Assembly (NCBI GenBank): GCA_012729555.1
Contig: JAAYCX010000010.1
Span: forward strand, 149,746 to 213,745
Origin: Acidobacteriota bacterium
Lineage (GTDB): Bacteria; Acidobacteriota; UBA6911
Length of the DNA stretch: 64,000 nt
Direction of reading: 5' to 3'
The notes below the pieces were generated by a model. The model did no database searches. It worked only from the letters and a program-made list of their open reading frames with translations, and was not told the origin of the DNA. The translations under genes and the position numbers were made by a program. Positions 55,505 through 63,598 of this stretch are shown here, one piece after another (positions within the stretch are counted from its first letter, which is position 1; every line of letters starts with the position of its first letter).

Positions 55505-56986
55505 ATGGAAGGCTACACCCTGGAACTCACCCCTCCCACATTTCGCCGCCTGGATGACGGGCAGCTCGAGCGTATCCACGAGGCGACGCTCGAGATCCTG
55601 TCCCGCGTCGGCGTGACGGTCGACTGCCCGGAGGCCCTGGAACTCCTCGACGGCGCCGGAGCGGACGTGTCCGATCCCCGAAAGGTCCGCATCCCCGGGG
55701 ACGTGATCGAGAAGGCCCTGGCGAGCGCGCCGGGCGCCATCGTGCTCCACAAGCGCGACGGCACCCCCTACGTCACCCTTTCGGGCAGCCGCTGCACCTT
55801 CGGCGGGACCCCGGACCAGCCCGACATCCTGGACCCCCGGGACGGGCGGAGGCGCCCCTGCCGGATTTCGGACGTGGTGGCCAATGCCCGCCTCATCGAC
55901 GCGCTCCCCAACCTGGCGTGGTCCTTCACGAGCATGTGGGCGGGTTACCCCCAGGGGCTCCCCGCGGTCCTGGCGGGGAAGGTGTCCTTCATGATCCAGC
56001 TCGAAAACAGCGATAAGCCGCTCGGGTCCTCCATGGCCAACCTCCAGAGCCTGCGGGACCAGCTCGAGGTGTGCGCCCTCGTGGCCGGGGGCGCCGACGA
56101 GCTGCGCCGCCGCCCCTTCTTCTTCGGGTCGGTGGAGCCGATCAGCCCGCTGGTCCACGGCCGGGACGCGCTGGAGAAGAGCCTGCTCCTGGCGGAGCAC
56201 GGGGTCCCCAACGTGGTCTACTCGATGCCGATGGCGGGAGCCACCGCCCCCGCCACCTTCGCCGGGACCCTGGCCGTGATGAACGCCGAGGTCCTGAGCC
56301 ACCTCGCCATCATCCAGCTCAAGAGGGCGGGCGCCCCCGTGGTCTACGGCGGCATGCCGAACGTCATCGACATGAAGACCACGATCTACCCCTACGGCTC
56401 CCCGGAACTCAATCTCCTCGTGATCGCCGCCACGGAACTGGCGCACCACTACGACCTGCCCATGCTGGGGACGGCCGGCTGCACCGACGCCAAGGTCCTC
56501 GGGCTCCAGGCCGGCATCGAGGCGGCGCAGCAGTGCCTGGCTTCGGTTCTCTCGGGCGCCAACATGGTCCACGACGTGGGCCTGATGGACCACGCGACCA
56601 TGATCTCGCCCGAGCTGATGGTCCTCACCGACGAGCTGATCGGGATGACGGGGGCGATGACGCAGGGGCTGGAGGTCAGCGACGAGACCCTCGCCCTGGA
56701 CCTGGTCGGGAAGGTGGGGCCGGGGGGGAGCTATTTCGCCGAGGAGCACACCTTCGAGCATTTCCGGGACTTCTGGGCGCCCTCGGTTCTCGACCGGAGC
56801 CGGGGGGCGAAGGCCGCACCGGCCGCCCCCGTGCGCCACAGCGAGGAGCTCCTGCGGGAGAAAACGCTCGGGCTCCTCGGGCATACCCCGCCGCCGCTTG
56901 CGCCCGGCCTCCTGGCGGAGATCAAGAAGCTGGAAAAAAGCTGGTTCCAGCGCCTCGGCCTCGACTACGCCTACCCGGAGGAGTGA
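55505..56986 (+). CDS. MttB-family methyltransferase (non-pyrrolysine trimethylamine/betaine type)
   Basis: A 493-residue TIM-barrel methyltransferase of the trimethylamine methyltransferase superfamily. It has [20 protein letters not shown] near 100 and [20 protein letters not shown] near 323. There is no in-frame amber codon, so it lacks pyrrolysine, which groups it with MtgB-type enzymes acting on glycine betaine or other quaternary amines. It needs a corrinoid protein, none of which is in this window. AAAGGA precedes the start. Confidence 0.88.
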
Positions 56987-61704: not shown

Positions 61705-62382
61705 TCAGCGGATGAGGGGGATCAGCAGGCGGTGCAGGGCGTCGTTGTCCTCCCGGCTCATCCCCTCGAAGATGCAGGCCAGGCGGTCCCTGCCGACCAT
61801 CCGCAGGGCCCTGGCTTCGATGGTGATGACGTCGGTCCCGGGGGGGAAGACCGAAAGGCGCACCGCACTGCCTGCGGGGACGGGCCGGGACACGCGCGCC
61901 AGGAGCCCGTTCAGGCTGATGTCCTCCGTCGTGGCGTGCACGGTTCCGTTCTCCGTTTCCATGGCGAGCGGGAGGGCGAGCAGGATGCGGCGGAAGCGGC
62001 GCTGCTCGCGCAGGATGAAGCCCTCGGAGGCCTTGACGAAGCGCAGGATCCGGCGCCGGTCCAGCGGCTTGAAGAGAAAGAAGTTGCCCCCGGCCTCGTA
62101 CCCGCGGTTCATGACCCCGGGATCCTCGTCCCCCGTCATCATGACTATGGGCGTGTGCATGTTGAATCCGCCGGAGCGCTGCAGGCGAGCCAGCTGGAAG
62201 CCGTCCGGGGCGGGCATGTGAACGTCCAGGAACACCGCGTCGAACTTCTCGCCCGGGAGGCGCTCCGCCGCCCGGGCGCTGTCGGTTTCCAGGATCGCGT
62301 CGATCCCCGCGCGGGCCAGGACGGCCTTCACGACGCGGCCCACGGCCGGTTCGTCGTCGACCAGGTAGAATCTCGTGCCCAT
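61705..62382 (-). CDS. Response regulator with C-terminal PilZ domain
   Basis: A 225-residue regulator. REC domain: acidic pocket LVDDE near 8-11, phospho-acceptor Asp in VFLDVHMP near 53, Lys in FLFKPLD near 105. A PilZ-like domain (about 120-220) for c-di-GMP follows, though its RxxxR/DxSxxG motifs are only partly kept (RRFRR, DISLNG). No kinase is adjacent. Start MGTRFYL at 62382. Confidence 0.85.
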   Translation of the reverse strand: MGTRFYLVDDEPAVGRVVKAVLARAGIDAILETDSARAAERLPGEKFDAVFLDVHMPAPDGFQLARLQRSGGFNMHTPIVMMTGDEDPGVMNRGYEAGGNFFLFKPLDRRRILRFVKASEGFILREQRRFRRILLALPLAMETENGTVHATTEDISLNGLLARVSRPVPAGSAVRLSVFPPGTDVITIEARALRMVGRDRLACIFEGMSREDNDALHRLLIPLIR

Positions 62383-62646
62383 TTCCTCACAACTCCCGCG
62401 CGGCGGACGGATCTCCCCCCCGGGAGGCGCCGACCGCCCTCGGGGTTCATATCGTGCGGGCGGGGGGAAAGCATGAGCCCGGCGGGCGATATTTGCGAAA
62501 AAGTCGGGTCGGGGCCGCGCCCGGCCCGTTCTGTAGTAATATCAAGTCTGGCATCATTGAGGGTCAGAACCGAAGGACCTGCGCCATTCCGGCCGGGTCG
62601 TGTCGGCCGGGAATGAAACAACAATTACTTCTGGAGGGAAACAAAG

Positions 62647-63543
62647 ATGAAACATGGCCGATGGAGCCTGATGACGGGCGTATTGGCGGCGGTCCTGGCC
62701 GTGGGAGGGGGGCTCGCGGCCTTCCAGCCTTCGGCCCAGGCCGGGGAGTGGAAAATGGTCGATCCCCAACCGAAGGTCGGGGAGAAGATGAGAATGGCCT
62801 CGTTCCTCGACGGGAAGATAGGGTTCACGGGCGGGGCCGGGGACGTCGGCAAGGCGCACCTCACCTTCGACGGCGGCCAGACCTGGACGGTGGCCGACAC
62901 CAGCGGCGGTTGACTCTACTTCGTGGACATCGTGGATGTCCAGACGGTATGGCAGTGCGGGATGAAGACCGTCAGCGTGAGCACGGACGGCGGCAAGACC
63001 TGGAAAACCCTTGAAGGAAAGGCGGGGGGCATGGGGTGCATCATGGCCTTCGCGGACGCAAAAACGGGCTGGCTCGGCTTCGGCGACAAATTCGAAATGA
63101 CGGCCGACGGCGGCCAGACATGGAAGCCCCTCGCCCTGCCCCAGGGCGTGGCCAAGGTGGCGGCCGTGTCGCTCCGCACCCCCGCGGAAGGGTACCTCCT
63201 TGACGACGCGGGCGTGCTCCACGTCACGACGGACGGGGGCAAGAGCTGGACCGCGCGTCCCCTGGGCCTCAGCGCCCCGAAAATCCAGGGATTCGCGGGC
63301 GGCCCCTTCATCAACGAGATCCCGCAGGCGGCCGTACGTTTCACCGACGCCGGCCACGGGGTCGTCGTCCTCGGCCTCGAGGGGAAGAGCGGCATGATGG
63401 CCCTGCGCACGGCCGACGGCGGCAAGACCTGGAAGGAGGAACCCCTCCCCGCCCGGTTCGGCGCGCCCTACGTTTCGCGCGACGGCAAGTTCCTGGCCGT
63501 GAACAAATGGAACGAGGGGGTCCAGCTGCTCCGGTACGAGTAA
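62647..63543 (+). CDS. Ycf48-like repeat protein with in-frame TGA: candidate selenoprotein
   Basis: A 298-residue exported protein. The signal peptide (about 1-31) is followed by four or more Ycf48/BNR-like repeats with the DGGxTW motif (FDGGQTW, TDGGKTW, ADGGQTW, TDGGKSW, ADGGKTW). The frame is open throughout except a single TGA at codon 89 (62911-62913). After it the repeats continue perfectly, and the protein ends at a normal stop. Downstream of the TGA lies a hairpin matching the bacterial SECIS layout (see the separate entry). Aligning repeats places the TGA opposite C131 of the next unit, and C104 could pair with it. The strong GGAGGG site before the ATG shows it is expressed. Either Sec is inserted, or this is a point-mutated pseudogene. 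Confidence 0.7.
62924..62942 (+). promoter_or_regulatory. Candidate bacterial SECIS hairpin
   Basis: TGGACATC and GATGTCCA form a perfect 8-bp stem with loop GTG. It begins 10 nt after the TGA, so the loop is 19-21 nt downstream of it, within the 16-37 nt window described for bSECIS elements, and has G in the first two loop positions. One bulged G at 62923 allows two more pairs below. Confidence 0.55.
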
Positions 63544-63570: not shown

Positions 63571-63598
63571 CAGGGCAGGGCCGTCGGGTCCTGCCCTG
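63571..63598 (+). terminator. Rho-independent terminator
   Basis: CAGGGCAGG and CCTGCCCTG form a 9-bp stem with a 10-nt loop, followed by TTTCATTTT, 28 nt after the stop of the Ycf48-like gene. Confidence 0.8.

Follow-up and report, generated by a model that had tools for sequence, protein, structure and literature searches.

A gene crossed by a single in-frame TGA

The DNA analysed here, called the window throughout, is a stretch of 64,000 nucleotides from contig JAAYCX010000010.1 of an Acidobacteriota bacterium, and this text concerns one gene near its 3' end, whose frame is crossed by a TGA that is probably read as selenocysteine (Sec). The gene lies on the + strand, opens with ATG at 62647 and closes with TAA at 63541-63543, giving 298 residues if the TGA at 62911-62913 is counted as codon 89. 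This TGA is the sole internal stop of the frame, and 209 sense codons separate it from the TAA. The frame check bears out what a preliminary description of this DNA had reported, namely one interrupting TGA with a long open continuation and a normal stop, together with Cys at residues 104 and 131; the frame holds no other Cys codon. Another 457 bases of the contig lie 3' of the gene, up to its end.

We searched for orthologues at E-values up to 1e-20 in 60 genomes, 59 of them from relatives and one the window's own, and at the same threshold in 396 genomes across the phylum, where up to six candidates were scored in each genome. The gene was found in 6 of the 60, all from the window's genus (10 genomes examined); the phylum-wide search recovered the same six and none beyond. 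Five of these genes (in G000, G003, G007, G008 and G009) carry one in-frame TGA each and no second internal stop. The sixth, in G006, carries none and has TGC (Cys) at the aligned codon. Retention of the TGA in five of the six genomes found with the gene, the window's own included, is above chance, the TGA orthologues being 65-68% identical to the window's gene. In all ten pairs of TGA orthologues nonsynonymous divergence (pN 0.11-0.21) stays well under synonymous divergence (pS 0.34-0.67), in the part before the TGA as in the part after it; purifying selection acts on either part. A search of viral contigs with query P0001 found no relative.

Three protein searches gave 702, 3712 and 591 matches, and the best 120 of each yielded 146 database proteins (P0002-P0147). 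Leaving out P0002, the window's own protein, 145 relatives were classed. The preliminary description had proposed looking in homologues for Cys, as against Trp or Arg, at the TGA position: it is Cys in 27 of the 27 database proteins that cover the site, as in G006, and no other residue was seen there among the examined relatives covering it. The other 118 start just after the site, which is where gene callers would place their starts if a TGA stood there. Among the best 120 matches of one search, P0002 included, the late starts (n = 100) are confined to residues 90, 93, 96 and 106. The last three of these are the places at which a start codon first follows the TGA in one or other of the five sequenced genes; residue 90 is not such a place.

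A midpoint-rooted FastTree phylogeny of 151 sequences, read without support values and built on columns that include residue 131, holds two clades. The first has 120 members with C131 (the five TGA genes and 115 late-start proteins), and the second has 31 (the 27 Cys database proteins, G006 and the late starts P0129-P0131). Residue 131 is Cys in 120 of 120 members of the first clade and Ser in 31 of 31 members of its sister. The motif QCG stands at residue 104 in all 64 members of the first clade that cover it (59 database proteins and the five TGA genes), the other 56 database proteins of this clade starting beyond residue 104; the sister clade has an SC pair at the place of 104-105 in every one of its 31 members. 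P0129-P0131 start exactly at Met90 and lie at a distance of 0.13-0.29 from the nearest Cys form. They perhaps represent a separate switch to Sec and, if their DNA carries TGA, Sec and Cys would have been exchanged more than once.

All four of selA, selB, selC and selD, for which the preliminary description had proposed to look, are present in the window's genome (3.83 Mb, 98.9% complete). SelA (563.7 bits), SelB (380.4) and SelD (368.7) each score above cut-off, as does a tRNA-Sec with anticodon TCA (72.4 bits). G006 holds a second, partial SelB match (L072, G006:C5:13130-14224; 276.5 bits, model positions 2-349).

Since the gene is otherwise open, the codon is kept in five species and the relatives that cover the site have Cys, Sec decoding is likely. 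We put the probability that TGA 62911 is decoded as Sec by the SelA, SelB, SelD and tRNA-Sec of this genome at about 0.88. This reading is well supported, and by stronger evidence than the downstream hairpin. The features of the locus are collected in Table 1.

Table 1. Features of the predicted selenoprotein gene, in window coordinates.
Feature	Position	Strand	Evidence
Predicted selenoprotein, full-length frame, 298 residues, U89	62647..63543	+	Frame read; orthologues with matching layout
Shine-Dalgarno-like GGAGGG before the ATG	62633..62638	+	Sequence; GGAGG precedes 6/6 orthologous starts
Likely signal peptide, residues ~1-31	62647..62739	+	Sequence pattern; predicted local distance difference test (pLDDT) <50 for residues 1-31
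In-frame TGA, predicted Sec codon 89	62911..62913	+	TGA in 5/6 genus orthologues, TGC in the sixth
Candidate selenocysteine insertion sequence (SECIS) hairpin, 8 bp, GTG loop at 62932-62934	62924..62942	+	Folding; orthologue comparison
C104, candidate partner of U89	62956..62958	+	QCG conserved in the clade
C131, candidate partner of U89, equivalent place in the next blade	63037..63039	+	Cys in 120/120 of the clade
Terminator-like hairpin with T tail, directly 3' of the gene	63571..63598	+	1 found vs 1.2 expected in shuffles

The candidate SECIS hairpin and the points against Sec

The candidate SECIS hairpin has the sequence TGGACATC-GTG-GATGTCCA, with 62924-62931 paired to 62935-62942 and 18 nt between the TGA and the loop, and SelB would be recruited by it. 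As summarised in a 2026 review (PMC13188914), the model of the bacterial SECIS (bSECIS) comprises a loop of 3-9 nt, a stem of 4-16 bp, a G within the first two loop bases, a spacing of 16-37 nt and a minimum free energy (MFE) of at most -7.5 kcal/mol. The window hairpin fits this model, with -9.7 kcal/mol, a 3-nt loop starting with G and its spacing of 18. The match to the published spacing and loop that the preliminary description had claimed stands for the window (8 bp, GTG, 18 nt), but the SECIS argument as a whole is weaker than claimed. An Rfam scan of the window at gathering scores gave no match.

In the five TGA genes the stem codons GAC, ATC and GAT are identical, while the loop codon varies (GTG, GTT or GTA); of the 13 Asp columns that are invariant, D97 alone is fixed as GAT. 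The Cys orthologue of G006 has ATA and GAC at stem codons, which breaks the stem. The fixed stem codons and the broken stem of G006 favour a SECIS and are suggestive only. The 50-nt MFE fold includes the hairpin in four of the five TGA genes, at -15.6 kcal/mol in the window.

Several observations weigh against decoding as Sec, many of them at the hairpin itself. Three orthologous loci (L059, L060 and L061) have GACATC-GTN-GATGTC, a 6-bp stem of -4.8 kcal/mol when taken bare, and agree with the bSECIS model in everything except energy (-4.8 vs -7.5, by our own scoring). The hairpin of G003 has an A-C mismatch, the best rule-passing stem in that gene being a different one of -4.3, and the 50-nt MFE fold of G009 is a different structure. 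The window hairpin exceeds chance by a modest margin only: among 1000 synonymous shuffles 22 equal it and 126-151 equal those of the orthologues; 36 of 269 codon positions in the same gene would pass the hairpin rule; and for a 66-nt stretch of the window the folding energy is no lower than in shuffled sequences, 59 out of 200 of which do at least as well (z -0.44). Covariation in the hairpin was not found by RNAalifold or pair counts. The hairpin is the weakest evidence for Sec. Beyond it, DNA of the TGA form was seen in one genus only, and 117 of the 118 late-start relatives rest on annotated start positions, not on DNA. All 10 genus genomes carry selB, among them G006 with its Cys form and four that yielded no copy of the gene, so that the presence of selB supports Sec but does not discriminate. 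Finally, no neighbour common to all loci that would point to a function was seen among the 19 frames scanned.

Fold, neighbourhood and alternative explanations

The product is predicted from its structural model to be a six-bladed Asp-box propeller and, judging by its N-terminal sequence, is likely exported with a signal peptide. The model places U89 immediately ahead of the first strand of one blade, C131 at the equivalent place in the next blade and C104 in the neighbouring strand. Together these three residues would make up a redox-active selenol/thiol site where the central channel opens. The Sec-Cys bond proposed in the preliminary description is possible.

A crude frame caller gave 63 frames for the window and the five other loci, and the 19 neighbouring frames mentioned above, none from G003, were scanned against Pfam. 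In G006 a same-strand gene of the MauE family (PF07291, 88.3 bits) lies 45 nt downstream of the Cys form. MauE is tied to disulfide chemistry in the maturation of methylamine dehydrogenase. In the same locus (L080, 6865-10032) the Cys form stands between a Tat-like protein without a Pfam match and the MauE family gene on the same strand, an arrangement that is possibly an operon. Both the MauE neighbour and the conservation of the partner cysteines speak for thiol/selenol redox chemistry in the periplasm, and such a site at the channel mouth appears the likeliest function. Elsewhere, a URO-D-like gene lies near the gene of G009 (43.1 bits) and near that of G006 (23.0, just below the cut-off of 23.9), and G009 and G007 each have, some 5 kb downstream, a frame with a near-identical N-terminus and no Pfam match. 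In the window, the frame at 61705-62382 (-), which diverges from the predicted selenoprotein gene, encodes a fusion of a response regulator receiver with a PilZ domain, and 55505-56986 (+) encodes an MttB-family methyltransferase (PF06253, 265.6 bits) with no internal TAG, which falls below the TIGR02369 cut-off (338.2 vs 525).

Were the TGA a true stop, the gene would be split or decaying and would yield an 88-residue exported peptide and perhaps, by re-initiation, a 206-residue protein. The 3' part does stand as a protein of its own in the databases, where P0002 and 118 further proteins have their starts beyond the site. A pseudogene is nevertheless rejected by the low pN before and after the TGA, and diverged species keep this codon in genes that have no further internal stop. 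The species differ in where an in-frame start first follows it (+4, +17, +17, +7 and +7 codons) and no Shine-Dalgarno-like motif was seen before this start in the five TGA genes, which speaks against re-initiation. The cut would also fall, going by the model, at a strand start inside the propeller, and relatives without the stop carry Cys at that place, so we regard a true stop as highly improbable. The TGA could instead be read through as an ordinary residue (Trp, Arg or Cys) by leaky decoding or codon reassignment, with no Sec involved; what is seen is the codon, not the residue, and the hairpin is weak in four orthologues. Such readthrough we consider quite improbable, given Cys and not Trp or Arg in the relatives and a full Sec gene set that includes tRNA-Sec with anticodon TCA. 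Codon reassignment is rejected, as TGA is the normal terminal stop of two orthologues. A sequencing or assembly error at 62911, where one codon change would open the frame, had been raised in the preliminary description as a way in which the finding might fail; it is ruled out by five assemblies that share the TGA, four of them besides the window's own and with diverged DNA, and its probability is negligible.

With Sec accepted at codon 89, the main rival to the redox role is that U89, C104 and C131 bind a metal or metalloid ion instead of acting in thiol redox chemistry. The three residues are soft ligands and the window's protein has no other Cys. Against this, the sister clade has Ser at 131 while keeping Cys at 89 and 105, and no metal-handling family was found among the scanned neighbours, which are part of the neighbouring frames. 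We hold metal binding to be unlikely, without dismissing it as we do the explanations above.

Comparison with known selenoproteins and with Ycf48

The preliminary description knew of no Sec member of this family. No Ycf48, BNR or propeller family stands among the 119 families and subfamilies of Table 1 in the 2026 review (PMC13188914), 'propeller', 'YCF48' and 'BNR' have no match in the main text of that article, and such terms were not found in the main text of the deep-Sep paper. At E-values up to 0.01 only two NCBIfam models, NF010237 and NF045728, matched, both below cut-off, and no NCBIfam model of any kind scored above it. Among open-licence papers, preprints excluded, no report joining the family or fold with Sec was found. 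As far as this catalogue and NCBIfam reach, the family's absence agrees with the earlier statement.

We think it reasonably probable that this is the first selenoprotein family to use an Asp-box beta-propeller as its scaffold. Its exported members, with six blades, would have a Sec-Cys-Cys redox site where the channel opens and would be spread over bacteria that carry the labels Acidobacteria and Desulfobacterota, and within the family Sec and Cys would have replaced each other more than once (in the main TGA clade, and in P0129-P0131 within the Cys clade). Most characterized selenoproteins have a thioredoxin-like fold, according to the same review (PMC13188914), and a propeller that carries Sec at a conserved position would, if true, be a new selenoprotein scaffold. 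The whole clade would then be mis-annotated, 118 of the 145 examined relatives starting just after the site, and the close Cys forms would allow a direct test of the role of Sec there.

Known bacterial selenoproteins decoded at UGA share with this gene an in-frame TGA with Cys homologues, a downstream hairpin and the sel genes. A Sec-containing protein of the same genome shows a similar layout: its selD (L074, G000:C9:39575-40507) has one in-frame TGA within an otherwise open match, the residues reading TTAAG, stop, AAKMG, and is likely a Sec-type SelD. SelD (TIGR00476) is a known selenoprotein family, and the 55 nt from its TGA fold to -26.6 kcal/mol, compared with -15.6 for the 50 nt of the present gene. 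The Cys sister clade (G006, P0003, P0122 and others) has the same length and the same site, its full-length members being 50-58% identical, and differs in having Cys for the TGA, SC for CG at 104-105 and Ser for C131.

With Ycf48/HCF136 (PF14870, NF010237) the protein has the DGGxTW Asp-box repeats in common, and there is a profile match to Ycf48 chains; PF14870 (PSII_BNR) matches residues 133-207 with 49.7 bits (gathering cut-off 27). The Ycf48 structures 5oj5 and 5ojr are the top Foldseek matches, with template modelling (TM) scores of 0.48-0.60 and root-mean-square deviations of 5.5-9.1 A, whereas the best Z of the model is to Pizza6 propellers, not to Ycf48. Pizza6 is six-bladed and Ycf48 seven-bladed. 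Assignment to Ycf48 proper is rejected, since NF010237 reaches 55.1 bits against a cut-off of 326; the protein is thus Ycf48-like by its repeats and PF14870, as had been described, but is not Ycf48 itself, from which its Cys/Sec site also sets it apart.
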